The notes under the pieces were generated by a model that searched no databases, was not told the origin of the DNA, and saw only the letters and a program-made list of their open reading frames with translations. The position numbers and the translations under genes are program-made. This document shows positions 14,597 to 32,005 of a stretch of 34,663 bases of DNA, piece after piece. Source of the stretch: Deltaproteobacteria bacterium (lineage in GTDB: Bacteria; Desulfobacterota; DSM-4660; Desulfatiglandales; Desulfatiglandaceae); NCBI GenBank assembly GCA_019308785.1, contig JAFDHL010000005.1, positions 1 to 34,663 on the forward strand, in the 5' to 3' direction. Numbering within the stretch: the stretch's first letter is position 1; the number at the start of each line of letters is the position of its first letter.

Positions 14597-14729
14597 ACAT
14601 TGACAAAACCTGCAATATTTATAGCGAAGCTATGCCTCAAACCGACAAGTTTGTGTGAATTTACTAAATCTTCTGCTTGAAGCGTAGAGATGCTGGTTGC
14701 TGGATAAACAAAAAGCCTTTCCTTATTCC

Positions 14730-14757
14730 ATCCAGTATCCAGAGACCAGTATCCAGT
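14730..14757. repeat. Heptad tandem repeat (ATCCAGT vocabulary)
   Basis: Four exact 7-nt steps: ATCCAGT, ATCCAGA, GACCAGT, ATCCAGT. About 25 nt upstream, GATGCTG and GTTGCTG repeat in 7-nt steps with partly complementary bases, so an imperfect stem is possible. The rest of the 255-nt gap holds a TTGACA at 14793 that may belong to the promoter of the lipase gene. Confidence 0.7.
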
Positions 14758-14833
14758 ATCTTTTCATTATTTGCACCACAATATATTGAAACTTGACATA
14801 AATTTTAAGATCTTGAGCTATATAGACGGATAG

Positions 14834-20713: not shown

Positions 20714-20762
20714 AAGCCGAACCTCCAAAGGTGATATTTGGGTTAATTGACAGCTCTTTTCC

Positions 20763-20790
20763 TTTGAGCCTTGAGCTTTAAGCTTTCAGC
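20763..20790. repeat. Heptad tandem repeat (TTTGAGC vocabulary)
   Basis: Four exact 7-nt steps: TTTGAGC, CTTGAGC, TTTAAGC, TTTCAGC, ending 5 nt before the stop codon of binding protein 2. It fills most of the gap between that gene and livF. Confidence 0.7.
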
Positions 20791-20795
20791 TCATC

Positions 20796-22079
20796 TTACC
20801 ATCCATGCCATTCGGATGCCCACTGCTTCGGCCACCTTGCCTTCAAGTCTACAAATTCCACTTCCTGGAACTTGCCGTTCTTATATTCCTGGACCAGACA
20901 ACCCGTCGTGGCCCTGTGATCCGTTGGCGTATAGGTCAAATCACCGGCGCCCAGGCCGATATGGAAGTTCCGCATGGTCTCAAAACCCTTTTTCATGATC
21001 CCCGGACCAGTCAGATCGCCTGCCTTGTCGGCCCTTTTCATAGCCTCCCAGACAGCCAGTGCATCGCCCCATGCCTGCGGGGTTCTATTCAAACGCTTGC
21101 TCGCGGGTATACCAGGGTTGTATTTCTTGGCATATTCTACAACATTATCCATGTTATCAGAGGGCTGACCAAAAAACTTGATCGGCGTTGCACCCATAAC
21201 TAACAGTGCGTCCGCTGCATTCATGGCGGCTCCGGCAAGGCGCGGGAGGTTTTCATCATAACCCCAGTTGTTCACTATATGATCCGCCCTTAATCCTAAT
21301 GCATAACAATCCCTGATGGTAGCAGACACCGACATGGTCGTATTGCCGTGCCATATTACATCTGGTTTAAACTTTTGAAGCGCCATGATCTGGCTCTTGG
21401 TATCAAGGGCAAAGAGACTCACATCCTGATCAGGACCTACATCAAAACCTAACAGCTTGGCATGATCTTTTATAGCTGCAATCGGAGCGCTTGCATATGG
21501 AGAAGGAAACATATAAGAACATGCCAGACGTGGCTTCCTCTTGCCGTAATCCGGATGCTTCGGCCATTTCTTGTCAAACCATGCCGTCAAACAGGACCTG
21601 GCATTGGTCGAATAATCCGAGGAAAAAAACAGGTTATAGCCTGTTCCGCCATGCTTCTTTCCGTCCCTGCCTACCCAGTCAACCGGCCGTGTCAGATGGG
21701 CAGAGTAGGAGGCTGATACATAGGGCATTTTATCCTTATTTACCGTGGGCGACAGTGCCTCGGTATCGCCGGTCCCCCATCCCATAATGGCAAGGACCCC
21801 CATCCTCTTGAGGAGTTTGTATTTGGTCAGGGCTTCCGGTATTCTGTAACCATAATCAAACCAGATGTATTTTATCTTCTTTCCATTTATGCCACCCATA
21901 TCATTAATGTAATGAAATGCCTCTGCCATTCCAATGGCATAATCCTTGCCAACATCCGAGGTGGCGCCGGTTGTATCCATAATACCGCCGACCTTAATCG
22001 TCTTGGCCAGGGCCATTGAGGATAGGCCAAACAGAAATACAAAGGCAAGCACAGGTATCAAAATCTTTTTCACGTTCAT
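20796..22079 (-). CDS. Liv-type ABC transporter substrate-binding protein 2
   Basis: A 427-residue periplasmic binding protein, paralogue of the one at 16085. The ATG at 22079 has GGGGGG upstream; the signal peptide is MNVKKILIPVLAFVFLFGLSSMALA with cleavage near residue 25. The mature protein starts KTIKVGGIMDTTGATSDVGK and carries the ligand-binding fold of the LivJ/LivK/AmiC group. Compared with the paralogue it has insertions around VGRDGKKHGGT (about residue 148) and in MNAADALLV (about 295). It sits inside the operon between livM and livF and is the likely main receptor for the importer. Ligand unknown. Confidence 0.94.
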   Translation of the reverse strand: MNVKKILIPVLAFVFLFGLSSMALAKTIKVGGIMDTTGATSDVGKDYAIGMAEAFHYINDMGGINGKKIKYIWFDYGYRIPEALTKYKLLKRMGVLAIMGWGTGDTEALSPTVNKDKMPYVSASYSAHLTRPVDWVGRDGKKHGGTGYNLFFSSDYSTNARSCLTAWFDKKWPKHPDYGKRKPRLACSYMFPSPYASAPIAAIKDHAKLLGFDVGPDQDVSLFALDTKSQIMALQKFKPDVIWHGNTTMSVSATIRDCYALGLRADHIVNNWGYDENLPRLAGAAMNAADALLVMGATPIKFFGQPSDNMDNVVEYAKKYNPGIPASKRLNRTPQAWGDALAVWEAMKRADKAGDLTGPGIMKKGFETMRNFHIGLGAGDLTYTPTDHRATTGCLVQEYKNGKFQEVEFVDLKARWPKQWASEWHGW

Positions 22080-22130
22080 AATGTTCCCCCCTTTTTAAAA
22101 AACAAACCTGTTTGAAATACATAACACTTC

Positions 22131-22283
22131 TAATCAGTTAATCAATTAACTATTAACTATGCCCAATAGTCACCTCCTTTCTTCTTTTAGTTAAGTTGTT
22201 TAGTCGTTGAGTGGTTGATTGGTTTACAAATTGACCCGTCACACTTGCTCGCCGGATAACCGGATAACGGGCAAACCGGCCAA
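22131..22283. repeat. Three tandem-repeat blocks with different vocabularies
   Basis: Block 1 (22131-22172): six 7-nt steps, with ATTAACT twice in a row. Block 2 (22191-22222): four 8-nt steps, TTAAGTTG, TTTAGTCG, TTGAGTGG, TTGATTGG, inversely related to the repeat at 9583-9622. Block 3 (22252-22283): four 8-nt steps, CCGGATAA twice, CGGGCAAA, CCGGCCAA, ending 5 nt before the livM stop. Together they fill the 209-nt gap between binding protein 2 and livM; I see no gene there. Confidence 0.75.
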
Positions 22284-22288
22284 CCAAA

Positions 22289-23386
22289 TTAGTACGAAAA
22301 TGGCCACAGGTTAAAATAGTTTTTGACCTGCCACCACCGGTAAGACAAACCGCGCGGCTCATAGATCAGAAATGCGCATATTGCAAGGCCAAAGGCCATT
22401 TCTTTGACAAAGGCAAAACTAAACATAATCTTAGGCCAATATTCGGAAAGTGGTATGGCCACCATCTGCAATAATTCCATGACCACGACCATAAATATGG
22501 ATCCGAATATGGCCCCCTCTATGCCGGCGCCACCAATGAGGATTACACCCACTAACCAGAGCGACAGGAACCAGGAAAAGTGTTCCGGGCTCAGGGCCGC
22601 ACAATTACTCACCCAGAATGCGCCTGCAATGCCTCCAATAAATCCGGCCACAAAGAAATTTAGAAGCTTGTACCATATAATATTGATACCAAGGGTCTCT
22701 GCGGCAATATCATTGTCCCTGATTGCGATCCACGCCCTCCCGACCCTGGACCTGAGGAGATTGGCCATAATCATAACCGTAAGGGCCAACAGGGTAATCA
22801 TCACAAAATATACCTTCAGATCCGTATCTATAACCCAGGGACCTATCTTGATGGTGCCGGGTGGGAGAGAAAACGCCTGTCCCCGGCCTCCGATCTTGCT
22901 CACATACTGGGTCAGGATAAAGTCCACAGTGATAAACTGAGCCGCCATGGTGGTCAGGATAAGGTAAAACCCTTTGACCCTGGCTGAAGGGAGACCAAAG
23001 AGAACGCTCCACAGGCCGGCAACAATCGCTGCGACTAAAATGCTTATGGGAAAGGCAAGCCCCCAATCGAGAATAAGCTGGGGCCACGGAAATTTCAGGA
23101 TCAACAGGGTGCTGGTATAGGCACCCACGGCGATAAAGGCGGCATGACCAAGGGTTATAAGACCCGCATAACCAATGAGGAGCTGAACGCCTAAAGCCCC
23201 AAGAATAGTATAGCCGACCATATTGGCCACACCGATCCAGTATTCGTCTAAGACCAGGGGAAATACGACAAAAACTATCAAAAGGAGCAAGATCATCTTC
23301 CCCTTTATAACATTGGTCTGCCACCAACCCTGATCCTCGGCATAGCGTTGATGGTAATCGCCGCAAGGAAGCCAAACTCTGGACAT
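22289..23386 (-). CDS. livM: Liv-type ABC transporter permease LivM
   Basis: A 365-residue permease of a branched-chain-amino-acid-type importer. The ATG at 23386 has AAGGAG at good spacing. The first 30 residues form a soluble extension (RVWLPCGDYHQRYAEDQGWWQT), which I recall from other LivM proteins of this subgroup, followed by about eight membrane segments. The family motif GYAGLITLGHAAFIAVGAY is at about 70-88. A conserved cytoplasmic loop for ATPase contact (VGRAWIAIRDNDIAAETLGI) lies at about 215-235. It pairs with LivH at 23890, from which it is separated by a four-helix-bundle gene and repeats. Confidence 0.95.
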   Translation of the reverse strand: MSRVWLPCGDYHQRYAEDQGWWQTNVIKGKMILLLLIVFVVFPLVLDEYWIGVANMVGYTILGALGVQLLIGYAGLITLGHAAFIAVGAYTSTLLILKFPWPQLILDWGLAFPISILVAAIVAGLWSVLFGLPSARVKGFYLILTTMAAQFITVDFILTQYVSKIGGRGQAFSLPPGTIKIGPWVIDTDLKVYFVMITLLALTVMIMANLLRSRVGRAWIAIRDNDIAAETLGINIIWYKLLNFFVAGFIGGIAGAFWVSNCAALSPEHFSWFLSLWLVGVILIGGAGIEGAIFGSIFMVVVMELLQMVAIPLSEYWPKIMFSFAFVKEMAFGLAICAFLIYEPRGLSYRWWQVKNYFNLWPFSY

Positions 23387-23406
23387 AAACTGATCTCCTT
23401 AATGCA

Positions 23407-23448
23407 ATTTAAAATGTAAAATTAACAATTAGCAATTAACATTTAATA
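23407..23448. repeat. Heptad tandem repeat (ATTAACA vocabulary), 3' flank of four-helix gene 1
   Basis: Six exact 7-nt steps: ATTTAAA, ATGTAAA, ATTAACA, ATTAGCA, ATTAACA, TTTAATA, ending at the base before the stop codon of the gene at 23449. GCAATTTAAAAT (23404-23415) and AATTAGCAATT (23427-23437) recur in inverse orientation in the 5' flank, at 23860-23871 and 23866-23876. Confidence 0.8.
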
Positions 23449-23826
23449 CTACTTTTTTGATTTAGCCGTAATGATACTTTTTGCAATTATTGCAGATAAT
23501 TCCTCACATTCTGCAATCAACGATTCAATCTGTTCGGGTTTCATAATCTTGCTCTGGGAAATGACTTTCAACCAGAAACGTGATTCTTTAATCTCCTTTA
23601 ACGCTATACCTAATTTGTGAACAAAATCAGCCCTTGATTCGGCCCCACGAGACTCTTCATAATTAGATCCACAAGATGTTCCTGATCGGACAAGCTGGCC
23701 TGCTATATGTCTTCCCACAACGGTTTTTGGTAACGCATTGACAAGTTTTATAACCCGTACGGCAAAATCAAGTAAACGTTGTGATATATCATCTCCAGCC
23801 CTCTTCTTACCTTCACCTGAATGCAT
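23449..23826 (-). CDS. Four-helix-bundle protein 1 (23S rRNA intervening-sequence-protein family)
   Basis: A 125-residue protein of the S23/IVP four-helix-bundle family (TIGR02436 type), first known from open frames inside intervening sequences of 23S rRNA and related to the Avd proteins of diversity-generating retroelements. Seen: QLVRSGTSCGSNYEESRGAESRADFVHKLGIALKE (about 44-78), with the family's S-x-S-x-x-x-N-x-x-E pattern, then KESRFWLKVI and a final charged helix. There is no rRNA here: the gene sits between livH and livM, on their strand, bracketed by complementary tandem-repeat words. The ribosome binding site is poor. It belongs to a different subgroup from the gene at 24842, so the pair is not a local duplication. 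Role unknown. Confidence 0.88.
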   Translation of the reverse strand: MHSGEGKKRAGDDISQRLLDFAVRVIKLVNALPKTVVGRHIAGQLVRSGTSCGSNYEESRGAESRADFVHKLGIALKEIKESRFWLKVISQSKIMKPEQIESLIAECEELSAIIAKSIITAKSKK

Positions 23827-23842
23827 AAAAAATAGGTTGTTT

Positions 23843-23876
23843 AAGTTGCTAAGTTGCTAATTTTAAATTGCTAATT
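23843..23876. repeat. Octad tandem repeat (AAGTTGCT vocabulary), 5' flank of four-helix gene 1
   Basis: AAGTTGCT occurs twice in a row (23843-23858), followed by two degenerate 8-nt steps ending in ATTGCTAA. It is complementary to parts of the 3' flank (see 23404-23437), so the gene would lie in the loop of an AT-rich stem. Confidence 0.7.
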
Positions 23877-23889
23877 TTCACTTTACCAG

Positions 23890-24774
23890 CTACATTCTTT
23901 CAATCTTTATCCAGCCCCATAACCCGTAAGGCTTAAAGAGCAGAAAGACGGCCATAAACGCAAAGGGAAAGATCTCCTTTACCCCTCCTGGAAAAAATGC
24001 ATCCAAGTAAGTGCCTGCAAAATTCTGCAAAACCCCTATGGTTATCCCCCCGACAATGGCCCCGGGGACGGAGTTAAGGCCACCCAACACCACGGCGGGC
24101 AGCACAAGAAGACCTAAATAGCCGATAGATATATTGACCCCGTTGATATTCCCTAAAAGCGCACCTCCAACACCGGCAGCCATAAATGCGATGGCCCAGG
24201 ACGCGGCATATACAAAACGGGCGCTCACCCCAAGGGACAGGGCCGCGGTTTCATCATCGGCCGTGGCCTGCATGGAAAGGCCCCAGCGTGTATATTTAAA
24301 AAAGGCAACAAAAACGAGAAACAGGACGATTGCCAGTACAAATGACCAGAAGTAGACGATTGAAATCTTCAAGAAACCGATGGTAAACGGCTTAAGAGAA
24401 AAGATGGCCGGCTCAAAGACCCTGGTATCTGTACCCCATATAAATCCAACCAATCCCTTAAGGAAAAAAGACAGTCCCACGGTGACCATGATTACGGCTA
24501 AGATCGGCTCTCCGATAAGTCTGTCTAAAAAGATCCTTTCCACCAGGATCCCAAGGACAATACCGATGACCAAAGTACATAAGATGCTCAGGACGAAAGG
24601 GATGCCCATTGCATAAAATGAGAGCGTTACATAGGCTCCGATAAGGGTCAATTCCCCCATGGCCAGGTTTAGGACGCCGGAACACTTATAGATCAAAACC
24701 CAACCCAGGGCAACTAAGGCATAGATTCCACCCACCATGATACCTGTGGTCAAGGTCATTAAAAATAACTCCAT
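23890..24774 (-). CDS. livH: Liv-type ABC transporter permease LivH
   Basis: A 294-residue inner-membrane permease of the LivH family with about eight hydrophobic segments. The N-terminus MELFLMTLTTGIMVGGIYALVALGWVLIYKCSGVLNLAMGELTLIGAY is the family hallmark. The ATPase-facing loop is RWGLSMQATADDETAALSLGV (about 168-188), and the end has GGLNSVPGAIVGGITIGVLQNF. GGGGGG lies upstream of the ATG. It forms the transmembrane pair with LivM. In the usual order livH and livM are adjacent; here a four-helix-bundle gene with repeats is inserted on each side of livH. Confidence 0.95.
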   Translation of the reverse strand: MELFLMTLTTGIMVGGIYALVALGWVLIYKCSGVLNLAMGELTLIGAYVTLSFYAMGIPFVLSILCTLVIGIVLGILVERIFLDRLIGEPILAVIMVTVGLSFFLKGLVGFIWGTDTRVFEPAIFSLKPFTIGFLKISIVYFWSFVLAIVLFLVFVAFFKYTRWGLSMQATADDETAALSLGVSARFVYAASWAIAFMAAGVGGALLGNINGVNISIGYLGLLVLPAVVLGGLNSVPGAIVGGITIGVLQNFAGTYLDAFFPGGVKEIFPFAFMAVFLLFKPYGLWGWIKIERM

Positions 24775-24798
24775 CGATTACCCCCCTTTTTTCAGTAT

Positions 24799-24826
24799 GC
24801 AGTAAGCACTAAGCAGTAGGCAGTAA
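24799..24826. repeat. Heptad tandem repeat (GCAGTAA vocabulary), 3' flank of four-helix gene 2
   Basis: Four exact 7-nt steps: GCAGTAA, GCACTAA, GCAGTAG, GCAGTAA. The 17 bases 24810-24826 are repeated perfectly in inverse orientation at 25240-25256, bracketing the gene at 24842-25234. The same words recur at 32006-32019 before pyrH. Confidence 0.85.
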
Positions 24827-24841
24827 AATAGCCAAGTTCAA

Positions 24842-25234
24842 TTATCGGCAGAACTTGTCGGATTTGTCGATCATGCCATACAACATCCGGTTTACTTCAT
24901 CATACCTTTTCATAAGATCTTGATATTGTTCGTTAGTGAGGTATTTAAAATCTTTCGAGAAATCTAGCCACACTTCAGTTTCACCAGCTTCGCCAGCACA
25001 GTCGATGAGTTTACTGACAAAAGCTTTTTCGTAGCGTCTTTTTTTCCATGCTTCAGCTATATTCGCAGGCACGCTTCTCGATGAACGCCGAATCTGATCT
25101 GTTAAAGAATATTTTTCTTCTTTGGGATATCCTTTCGTTATTTCATGTATATCTAAAGCAAGCTGATATGACAACGTATAGACTTTCAAATCTCTATATC
25201 CCCTATATCCGTTCTTTCTCATAGAAATATCCAT
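24842..25234 (-). CDS. Four-helix-bundle protein 2 (23S rRNA intervening-sequence-protein family)
   Basis: A 130-residue member of the other main subgroup of the IVP four-helix-bundle family. Seen: GYRDLKVYTLSYQLALDIHEITKGYPKEEKYSLTDQIRRSSRSVPANIAEAWKKR (about 11-65), a near-textbook family N-terminus with the QIRRSS...NIAE motif, followed by AGEAGETEVWLD (about 79-90) and a last helix. The ATG at 25234 was used; another in frame lies 12 nt downstream. The gene is enclosed by a 17-bp perfect inverted repeat made of 7-nt words, 15 nt beyond its stop and 5 nt before its start. It lies between the long-chain-type acyl-CoA ligase and livH, on their strand, like an intervening sequence in an mRNA rather than in rRNA. 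Confidence 0.92.
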   Translation of the reverse strand: MDISMRKNGYRGYRDLKVYTLSYQLALDIHEITKGYPKEEKYSLTDQIRRSSRSVPANIAEAWKKRRYEKAFVSKLIDCAGEAGETEVWLDFSKDFKYLTNEQYQDLMKRYDEVNRMLYGMIDKSDKFCR

Positions 25235-25289
25235 TCTGCTTACTGCCTACTGCTTACTTTTTACTCCTTACTTACTGCTGCCTACTTCT
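25234..25289. repeat. Heptad tandem repeat (TACTGCC/TACTNNN vocabulary), overlapping ligase 3' end
   Basis: Eight consecutive 7-nt steps, most of them beginning TACT (TTCTGCT, TACTGCC, TACTGCT, TACTTTT, TACTCCT, TACTTAC, TGCTGCC, TACTTCT). The last ~22 bases are the coding end of the acyl-CoA ligase, so its final residues (VGSSK) are written in repeat sequence. It is the inverse partner of 24799-24826. Confidence 0.85.
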
Positions 25290-27196
25290 TGAATACGTAG
25301 ATCCGTCTTGATACGCTGTGTTCTTCCGTCCTCATAGGTAATTGTCATGTCTAAGTGGGCCTTTTCTTCATCCTTGTAAAGGGTCTCAATAATTTCCTTG
25401 TATCTCTCACCCATAAAACCCCTCCTCAGCTTGCTGGTCCTTGTCAATTCATCATCATCTGCATCAAATGCCTTGAAGAGGTTTACAAATTTCTTTATCC
25501 TGGCAGGCTCCGGAAGGTCTTTATTTGCCTCTGCTATCTGTTTCTGGATAAGATCGTAGACTTTTTGATTCTGGGAGAGCTCCGGATAGCTCGTGTAGTT
25601 GATCTTATTCTCATCCGCCCACTTGCCGACAACCGAATAATCTATACACATGACAGCGGTTACATAAGGAAGTTTGTCCCCGATAACCCAGGCATCCTGC
25701 ACATAGGGGCTGAATTTAAGCCTGCTCTCCAAATACTGGGGGGCAAATGGCCTGTCATCATTGAGGATCATAACGTCCTTAGACCTGTCAAAAACAACCA
25801 GATGTCCGTCTTCGTCAATAAAACCGGTGTCGCCTGAGAAAAGCCACCCGTCCTGCAATGTCTTTTCGGTTGCCTCATCGTTTTTATAGTACCCTATAAA
25901 GACAGAAGGGCTTTTAGACAAAATCTCTCCGTCTTCCGTGATCTTTACCTCTGTTTCAGGGATGGGGGTGCCGACAGTATCAAATTTTATGTCCCCGTCC
26001 CTGTGAACAACGGATATACCTGCGATCTCTGTCTGTCCATATATCTGTTTCAGGTTCACACCAAGGGCATGGAAAAAACGAAAGTGGTCCGGGCCCATTG
26101 CCGCACCGCCGGTGTAACAGTGCCGGAGCCGCGACATCCCAAGGTGGTCCTTGAGCTTCTTCTGCATAATTGTGTGAGCAAAATATTTCAATGCCTTCCA
26201 GTACCACGGAATGGGCTTCTTTTCGAAGTTCAGCTCAGCCACATAATAGCCTATCTTTGTGGCCACTTCATATGTCTTCCTCTTTATCCATGTAGAATCC
26301 AGATATTTTACCTGAACCTGACGGGTCAGGCCCTCATAAAGCCTTGGGGCGGCAAACATGACATGTGGCCCTACCTCTCGAATATTATGCTGGGCCGTTT
26401 CAGGTTCCTCCGGGAAGTTCAAGGTATATCCCACCTGAAGGCCGCAGGATACGGACATCATCTGCTCACCGATCCATGCAAAGGGGAGATAGGATACAAA
26501 GTCATCGGTATCATAACAGGGGTCAACAGACATGAGACTCCTGCCCATACTCAACATGTTCCAATGTGTGAGCAGCGCGCCTTTGGGAAGGGCCGTTGTC
26601 CCGGATGTGTAAAACAGGAGGCAGACATCTTCACCTTTTCCTTCATTTATCATTTTTTCAAAAAGGTCCGGCTCCTTTTCGTCAAGCTCTCTGCCAATCT
26701 CCTGGGTCTTCTTTATGCTATGCAGGAATTCCTGATGATATCTCCTCATCCCCTTTGGGTCATCCCATATGACATGTTCCAATTTCGGGCAATCAGGCAT
26801 AATGCCTAATGCCTTGTCAACCTCCTCCTGGGTCTCTCCCACAAAGAACCTGCTGTCAGAATGGTCTATGATATATTTGACCTCCTCCATCATACAATCC
26901 TGAAAAAGCCATACCGGTATGGCCCCTGCGCACATGGAAGCCATCTCCGCCCAGATCCCCTCCGGCCTGTTATCGCCGATCATGGCCACCTTGTCCCCCT
27001 TCTTCAGACCGAGGCTGACCATTCCCAGGCAAAGGTATTTTACGTTATCAAGGTAGTCCTGCCAGGTGTAAGGCAGCCATATTCCAAACTCCTTCTCTCT
27101 CATGGCAACCTTTCCGCTACCATATCTCTTGCATTGATGTAAAAATAACTGGGGAATCGTCAGTTCTTCTGTTATCTGTATCTTTTCCTCACTCAT
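25268..27196 (-). CDS. AMP-forming long-chain-type acyl-CoA ligase
   Basis: A 642-residue ANL-superfamily ligase of the long FACS-like type, which activates fatty or other organic acids to CoA thioesters in the cytosol. Motifs: the phosphate loop YTSGTTALPKG (196-206), YGQTE near residue 390, SGDTG and FDRSKDVMIL further on, and a C-terminal domain with TRTSKLRRGF carrying the adenylation lysine. AGGAG precedes the ATG, 1 nt from the livG stop, so the two are translationally coupled. The final residues are encoded by the heptad repeat at 25234-25289, implying that repeat growth or insertion reset the stop codon. Pairing of a long ligase with an ABC importer suggests trapping of the imported acid as a CoA ester; substrate unknown. 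Confidence 0.95.
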   Translation of the reverse strand: MSEEKIQITEELTIPQLFLHQCKRYGSGKVAMREKEFGIWLPYTWQDYLDNVKYLCLGMVSLGLKKGDKVAMIGDNRPEGIWAEMASMCAGAIPVWLFQDCMMEEVKYIIDHSDSRFFVGETQEEVDKALGIMPDCPKLEHVIWDDPKGMRRYHQEFLHSIKKTQEIGRELDEKEPDLFEKMINEGKGEDVCLLFYTSGTTALPKGALLTHWNMLSMGRSLMSVDPCYDTDDFVSYLPFAWIGEQMMSVSCGLQVGYTLNFPEEPETAQHNIREVGPHVMFAAPRLYEGLTRQVQVKYLDSTWIKRKTYEVATKIGYYVAELNFEKKPIPWYWKALKYFAHTIMQKKLKDHLGMSRLRHCYTGGAAMGPDHFRFFHALGVNLKQIYGQTEIAGISVVHRDGDIKFDTVGTPIPETEVKITEDGEILSKSPSVFIGYYKNDEATEKTLQDGWLFSGDTGFIDEDGHLVVFDRSKDVMILNDDRPFAPQYLESRLKFSPYVQDAWVIGDKLPYVTAVMCIDYSVVGKWADENKINYTSYPELSQNQKVYDLIQKQIAEANKDLPEPARIKKFVNLFKAFDADDDELTRTSKLRRGFMGERYKEIIETLYKDEEKAHLDMTITYEDGRTQRIKTDLRIQEVGSSK

Positions 27197-31722: not shown

Positions 31723-31810
31723 GTGACTACTCACGTAGTAAGGCTGAAGGTATTTAGCCTGAAGACTGAAGGGGAAAGAGAACCGAAAGAGTTCTTTTCA
31801 GGGATAAAGC
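31723..31810 (+). repeat. Dispersed ~88-nt repeat, copy 1 (GACTAC-GTAGT hairpin unit)
   Basis: It starts with the hairpin GTGACTACTCACGTAGT, then AAGGCTGAAGG and further 7-nt-like steps (CTGAAGA, CTGAAGG), and ends GGGATAAAGCAG. It is immediately followed by copy 2 at 31815; other copies lie at 32859 and (inverse, hairpin only) 19169. Confidence 0.8.
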
Positions 31811-31814
31811 AGTT

Positions 31815-32005
31815 GTGACTACTCACGTAGTCAGGCTGAAGGTGTTTAGACTGAAGGCTGAAGGGAAAAGAGAACTGAAATTTTTTTAGGGATAAAGCAG
31901 TTACAAGCAGTTATAGTAAAATATGAGCCCCATGTGTAACACGTTCAGCCCTTTACTAATCCCGCGTTCCGCGGGACCTTCGGCCTAAATAACCTGAGTA
32001 ATTAC
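31815..32005 (+). repeat. ~190-nt intergenic direct repeat, copy A (before pyrH)
   Basis: It begins with the GTGACTACTCACGTAGTC hairpin unit and ends CCTGAGTAATTAC. It includes the strong hairpin CCCGCG, 3-nt loop, CGCGGG, then ACCTTCGGCC, at about 31961-31985. It is repeated with few changes at 32859-33084 before frr, so pyrH is bracketed. After it, GCAGCAG and GCAGTAA (32006-32019) repeat the heptad words seen at 24799. This fills the 358-nt gap between tsf and pyrH; no gene seen. Confidence 0.88.

Follow-up and report, generated by a model that had tools for sequence, protein, structure and literature searches.

The 23S rRNA genes of Coxiella, Leptospira and other bacteria may carry an intervening sequence (IVS) with an open reading frame (ORF) for an S23p protein, and in Coxiella two to three GACAGAT heptamers lie upstream of that ORF (PMC4990558). 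The elements considered here share with these intervening sequences both the protein family and the complementary ends, but they sit between protein genes, occur in many copies per genome with differing repeat words, and have arrays on both sides as well as gene-less hairpins with the same words. Two of them, built around the S23/IVP genes that we call IVP-A and IVP-B, lie on either side of livH in a liv operon of a deltaproteobacterium (Desulfatiglandaceae; assembly GCA_019308785.1), within a stretch of 34,663 nucleotides that was analysed whole and is referred to below as the window (contig JAFDHL010000005.1, positions 1 to 34,663). To our knowledge, S23 four-helix-bundle genes, which are common, have no assigned function outside rRNA.

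How do these elements compare with other systems that pair a protein gene with repeats? In RAYT/REPIN systems the type of repeat tracks the type of RAYT protein, as is the case with IVP words. These systems are also the nearest analogue in layout (PMC3116915), in that a protein gene is associated with inverted repeats and gene-less hairpins are dispersed between genes (PMC3116915, PMC2817692, PMC8266576). The IVP protein, by contrast, has no Y1 domain and folds as a four-helix bundle, and its repeats are degenerate heptad or octad arrays, not a single palindrome. A different kinship is suggested by Avd, a nucleic-acid partner protein that works with a reverse transcriptase in diversity-generating retroelements (DGRs). 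Avd (4dwl, 8ub7) has the same fold as IVP, and IVP-B exceeds the bAvd Pfam cut-off, but the IVP elements contain neither a reverse transcriptase nor a template/variable repeat, and the four genes of this genome that match RVT_1 lie on other contigs (C315, C82, C2, C216). Finally, heptad arrays between genes are already on record, with no cause assigned to them, as the intergenic TAACTGA heptanucleotide repeats of Beggiatoaceae (PMC4679880); those are direct repeats upstream of genes, and S23 or four-helix proteins are not mentioned in that paper. Whereas the S23 protein family, the rRNA intervening sequences and the Coxiella heptamers are thus known already, the association of S23 genes with arrays appears to be new: no description of inverted, word-specific heptad arrays around S23/four-helix genes was found in the literature searched, which covered few subscription papers, the nearest being the Coxiella IVS and its heptamers.

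Two S23/IVP genes beside livH

IVP-A (23449-23826, minus strand) lies between livM and livH, not inside a 23S rRNA gene, and encodes a protein of 125 amino acids with an isoelectric point (pI) of 9.6, which profiles assign to the S23/23S rRNA-intervening-sequence type (PF05635, 72.1 bits, cut-off 33.8; TIGR02436, 93.9 bits, cut-off 24) and which AlphaFold2 predicts to adopt the four-helix bundle of the S23 fold (pLDDT 91.9). The best Foldseek matches were 2rld and 2gsc, and Avd (4dwl) was retrieved too. PF05635 is the sole domain matched in the gene, no Y1 (PF01797) transposase being found there, and Rfam gave no match over 22000-26000, an interval that includes both IVP genes. A preliminary description of the window had placed six heptads on the 3' side of this gene and octads on its 5' side, an arrangement that the sequence confirms. 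The 3' (D) arm (23405-23448) is made of degenerate AATTAAC/AATTAGC heptads, six of which (AATTTAA, AATGTAA, AATTAAC, AATTAGC, AATTAAC, ATTTAAT) fill the low-coordinate flank at 23406-23447; Tandem Repeats Finder reports 3.9 copies of period 7 at 23420-23446. The 5' (U) arm (23842-23883), which is complementary to the D arm, combines TAAGTTGC octads (23842-23860) with AAATTGCTAATTT repeats, a 14-mer repeat occupying 23850-23878. The words GCAATTTAAAAT (from 23405) and AATTAGCAATT, said in the same description to recur inverted across the gene, do have inverted copies at about 23862-23877. The longest arms, 23406-23435 and 23854-23883, measure 30 nt and are 73% complementary, and the alignment of the U flank with the reverse-complemented D flank scores 21, compared with 10.5 +/- 1.9 in 2000 dinucleotide shuffles (p=0.0005), the null applied to both genes.

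IVP-B (24842-25234, minus strand), at the acs|livH junction, encodes 130 amino acids (pI 9.1). It scores 119.3 bits with PF05635, 116 with TIGR02436 and 44.3 with PF22296 (bAvd; cut-off 40), stays under the cut-off of 80 for NCBIfam DivGenRetAVD (40.8), and has PF05635 and bAvd as the only domains matched. At 21% identity the two proteins are not close copies of each other, just as had been proposed, and the proposal that both genes share one layout also stands, complementary ends surrounding either ORF. The D arm of IVP-B (24793-24828) consists of AGTADGS heptads, the U arm (25236-25288) of AGTADGS heptads read on the minus strand; the inverted arms span 33 nt with 85% complementarity, and the flank alignment scores 23 against a shuffle mean of 10.4 (p=0.001). 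The U arm overlaps the 3' end of acs: at 25268-25288 it covers the last codons of this acyl-CoA synthetase gene, so that the C-terminus of the product appears to have been altered by the array in this genome.

Did the two genes arrive separately? Independent insertions beside livH, as suggested in the preliminary description, are supported by what is found at orthologous junctions (this genome, G000, included), where an IVP gene is present at acs|livH in 5 of 24 cases and at livH|livM in 1 of 21. At acs|livH, IVP-B occurs in G000, G036, G023, G013 and G012; G001, G008 and G027 have remnant or solo heptad arrays, and many other relatives have neither gene nor array. At livH|livM, IVP-A is present in G000 alone, solo AGTADG-type arrays are seen in G008, G004 and G023, and inverted arrays without a gene in G013, G020 and G019. 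Elsewhere in the phylum, as judged from the flanking coding sequence, relatives of IVP-A occupy acs|livH (L250, L251, L252) and livH|livM (L249). Between G000 and G013, synonymous divergence (dS) is 1.0 for IVP-B and 3.1 for the adjacent livH, whereas between G000 and G036 the order is reversed (1.6 and 1.2, respectively), a disagreement which argues that IVP-B was not simply inherited with the operon. The nonsynonymous divergence (dN) of IVP-B from its G013 orthologue is 0.048, and the resulting dN/dS of about 0.05 implies purifying selection on the protein.

Arms, words and gene-less arrays across bacteria

The layout was followed in 160 IVP loci, drawn from the phylum and from named metagenome-assembled genomes, with 339 ordinary genes of 300-600 nt, taken as simple ORF picks from the fetched contigs, serving as controls; flanks were 150 nt long and the alignment scoring was chosen by the analyst and left untuned. 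Complementary arms at p<0.05 against dinucleotide shuffles were found at 123 of the 160 IVP loci and at 21 of the 339 control genes, which bears out the earlier suspicion that a common mechanism ties this protein family to period-7/8 repeats. Own arms had a median score of 22, swapped arms one of 10, and own arms exceeded the 95th percentile of swapped pairs at 113 loci where 8 were expected. Periodicity was detected in 195 of 320 IVP arms but in only 5 of 320 shuffled ones, with lag 7 the commonest, followed by 8 and 9 and with 14 represented as well; where both arms were periodic, they usually had the same lag. In 94 of 106 cases the sense strand of the U arm was rich in purines, and the proteins are basic (median pI 9.0). 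Inverted arrays around IVP genes recur in many bacterial phyla, with GC-rich words among them. The present genome (399 contigs) by itself holds 17 PF05635 matches, fragments among them, and their flank words differ (AGTAAGC, AATTAGC, GCCGGTTA, CGGTGAAT, GAACGTCC, AAGGATTC and others). Another IVP of this genome (L296, C228:7465-7906) belongs to a second liv operon, where its neighbours are a livM-like and a livF-like gene and where GGAGTAAT repeats are once more present.

The repeat word tracks the protein subfamily. Arm matches above a score of 14 between different loci remain at background (3-7% of pairs) as long as protein identity is below 50%, and rise to 28% at 50-60%, 68% at 60-75% and 81% above 75% identity. 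Relatives at least 61% identical to IVP-B, which come from about seven phyla (Desulfobacterota, Brocadiales, Deferribacteres, Bacteroidetes, WOR-3, Auribacterota, Thermodesulfovibrionia), mostly have AGTADGS-type heptads, that from Auribacterota (L208) only in a looser form; the words of more distant relatives are GAGACRG, GGTGAAGG, GACGCGGA or GGGGGAG, and inverted arms are significant at 24 of the 25 named loci of IVP-B relatives. Since synonymous sites are saturated in the more distant IVP-B pairs (NG86 dS is undefined for the CSMAG, M55 and Brocadiales pairs), the shared AGTADGS word seems to have been kept beyond neutral expectation. In the group of IVP-A relatives at 57-63% identity, L250-L252 have AATTAGCAATT/AAAATTAGC words in common, in place of which L247-L248 have TCAATGATC words. 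Within subfamilies, moreover, own arms match each other better than they match the arms of relatives (74:25, p=2e-8), indicating that the two arms change together.

Arrays also occur without the gene. In the window, a hairpin at 14689-14760 is formed by inverted TGGATGC/ATCCAGT-type arrays (GATGCTGGTTGCTGGATA / TATCCAGAGACCAGTATC) with 29 nt between the arms; two arrays at 22186-22290 separate livM-like and substrate-binding-protein genes, their CCGGATAA part matching the word of an IVP on contig C225 (L003); and a solo array (CTTTGAGC / GAGCTTT) lies at 20756-20792, with a substrate-binding-protein gene on one side and a livF-like gene on the other. A 92-bp direct duplication with GACTGAAG heptads (31723-31902) is located between tsf and pyrH-like genes; the word is found, too, upstream of two truncated IVPs, L004 and L013. 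As in RAYT/REPIN systems, gene-less hairpins with a cognate repeat are dispersed, though several array-bearing genomes have no close cognate protein. The pattern AGTADGNAGTADGNAGTADG is present in 13 of 41 genomes, as against 2 control matches over all genomes, and a match at p<=0.05 to the word of an IVP in the same genome was obtained for 37 of 117 solo arrays, about 6 being expected (masked bases are present in 2 of the 117, which were not counted as evidence). Among the neighbouring arrays listed that lie at most 700 nt apart, 10 cases are convergent and none divergent, several of the convergent ones having 20-41 nt between the arms. With regions picked without regard to IVP position, the share of intergenic DNA taken up by arrays is 2.8% where a genome has five or more IVPs and 0.19% where it has two or fewer (p=0.003, about 14-fold); density sampling near IVPs is biased for the rich genomes, and the effect is smaller, yet persists, in IVP-blind regions. 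In G020, where arrays persist or spread although no close IVP-B is present, the 38 AGTADG matches are distributed over contigs C4, C15, C23, C27, C32, C89 and others.

Explanations for the association of gene and word

What could keep a four-helix-bundle gene together with a repeat word? The IVP elements have inverted periodic arms, a subfamily-specific word, a history unlike that of their neighbours, and array-only and hairpin-only derivatives at other intergenic sites; the recurrence of the layout across phyla, together with a word that tracks the subfamily, points to a selfish DNA cassette. At a probability that we would put at roughly 55%, the gene and its two arrays make up a cassette that is mobile or selfish and laid out in the manner of REPINs, with a basic protein akin to Avd that recognises the cognate repeat, such recognition being the simplest reason for word and protein to stay together. 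The cassette would be about 450-500 bp long and comprise the U arm, the S23/IVP gene and a D arm in which the U word is repeated in inverted orientation. The protein, for which homology predicts a pentameric form, may bind its own word when this is exposed as a single-strand hairpin, and binding would promote the copying or spread of elements bearing the same word, cassettes and gene-less hairpins alike, the cassette travelling with its arms and shedding such hairpins. The cutting and joining of DNA would have to come from host replication or repair activity, or from another element. That the liv operon of G000 hosts two cassettes and several gene-less arrays is probably due to the tolerance of gaps beside stop codons.

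Several observations weigh against this interpretation. In a profile search neither the IVP-A nor the IVP-B cassette matched a domain for cutting or joining DNA, and while inverted ends are present, as in insertion sequences and miniature inverted-repeat transposable elements, no target-site duplication was recognisable by eye between filled and empty sites, which have diverged. At about one quarter of the IVP loci the inverted arms are absent or not significant, and in some cases the arms are oriented directly. Among the solo arrays, 80 of 117 correspond to none of the IVP words known from the same genome, IVP sampling per genome being incomplete, and AGTADG solo arrays without a close IVP-B occur in G020 (38 matches), G038 (24), G034 and G008, which implies that the cognate protein is not required for arrays to persist. 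In addition, the relatives are mostly draft genomes and the counts are not phylogenetically independent. Lastly, IVP copy number correlates with the number of Y1 transposases (rho 0.52), a correlation that could reflect general mobile-element load.

Might the arms instead act in RNA? In that case they would pair once the operon is transcribed, the resulting stem would be cut by RNase III and the protein would bind the excised RNA, the element being tolerated in operons because it is processed out. The kinship with the 23S IVS ORF, whose inverted ends form a stem cut by RNase III (PMC4990558), speaks for such a scheme, as do the basic proteins, the fold in common with the Avd of the DGR ribonucleoprotein, and the upstream gene, which is co-directional for 119 of 126 IVP genes compared with 209 of 255 control genes (p=8e-4). 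Arm RNA duplexes beat shuffles at p<=0.05 in 100 of the 160 loci; for IVP-A and IVP-B the arms alone reach -43.1 versus -24.9 and -48.9 versus -34.1 kcal/mol, respectively, each better than 60 of 60 shuffles. Even so, we consider it rather unlikely. Folding of the whole element, the check proposed in the preliminary description, succeeded for IVP-B (24785-25295, z -2.89, 0 of 100 shuffles as good) and failed to reach significance for IVP-A (23396-23890, z -1.26, 11 of 100), although the test has little sensitivity, the stem making up only a small share of the roughly 500 nt folded. On the sense strand, G-U and A-C arm mismatches number 276 and 255 (p=0.39), and lacking the G-U excess that selection on an RNA stem would produce, selection through wobble pairs was rejected. 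With a marginal IVP-A fold and no G-U excess, the RNA-stem reading, and with it the folding mechanism implied in the preliminary description, is not favoured. Nor does it explain the dispersed gene-less hairpins or why the word tracks the protein, as RNase III requires no conserved word. Recognition or copying at the level of DNA is therefore weakly favoured over RNA.

The arrays could also come first, heptad arrays that expand by slippage or otherwise offering insertion-tolerant targets in which IVP genes land when the word matches. Solo arrays are indeed widespread, sometimes abundant without a cognate IVP (G020), and found at orthologous sites where other genomes have an IVP; landing in a direct array, however, should leave flanks of the same orientation, whereas own-arm matches above the 95th swapped percentile are mainly inverted (113 of 160, against 39 of 160 direct). 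The words moreover follow the protein across phyla, and genomes with few IVPs are nearly free of arrays (1 of 15 with arrays), all of which makes this order of events improbable. We regard it as very improbable that the IVP cassette is a passenger of another mobile system, be it a reverse transcriptase, of the kind that Avd partners, or a RAYT-type Y1 transposase, of which G000 has 10 (Y1_Tnp) and whose number follows that of IVPs as noted above. Reverse transcriptase was rejected as the mobiliser because RVT_1 is missing from many IVP-rich genomes (G013, G019, G023 and G034 among them), and Y1/RAYT because Y1 genes with inverted flanks carry different, non-heptad repeats and array number is uncorrelated with Y1 (rho 0.05); Y1_Tnp is also absent from the IVP-bearing G038 and G032. 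That the layout arose by chance in intergenic DNA rich in AT and in repeats, a view for which the AT-rich flanks and unremarkable whole-element fold of IVP-A might be cited, is barely conceivable in the face of the shuffled- and swapped-arm controls, the generic-gene control and phylum-wide recurrence that includes GC-rich words.

Two further observations concern other elements in these genomes. The Y1 transposase genes L101, L105 and L106 of G000 have inverted flanks without heptad arrays, several with GGGACG-type ends, and G011 has 34 RVT_1 matches, many of the same score, as if a reverse-transcriptase element, possibly a group II intron, had multiplied in a burst.

Significance for S23 genes and intergenic DNA

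The correspondence between word and protein ties S23 genes to heptad arrays in a manner that can be put to the test, through the prediction that one named protein will bind one named repeat specifically. A wider proposal, which we hold to be possible though rather doubtful, is that S23/IVP proteins outside rRNA are the repeat-specific drivers, each subfamily with its own heptad or octad word, of selfish elements that make up a large, unnamed class in bacteria and whose cassettes and gene-less hairpins would spread in REPIN-like fashion without a transposase domain; much of the degenerate intergenic heptad-array DNA of environmental bacteria would then be their product. If true, this would explain a substantial category of the DNA between bacterial genes, and it would bear on the origin of the rRNA intervening sequences and perhaps also on that of Avd.
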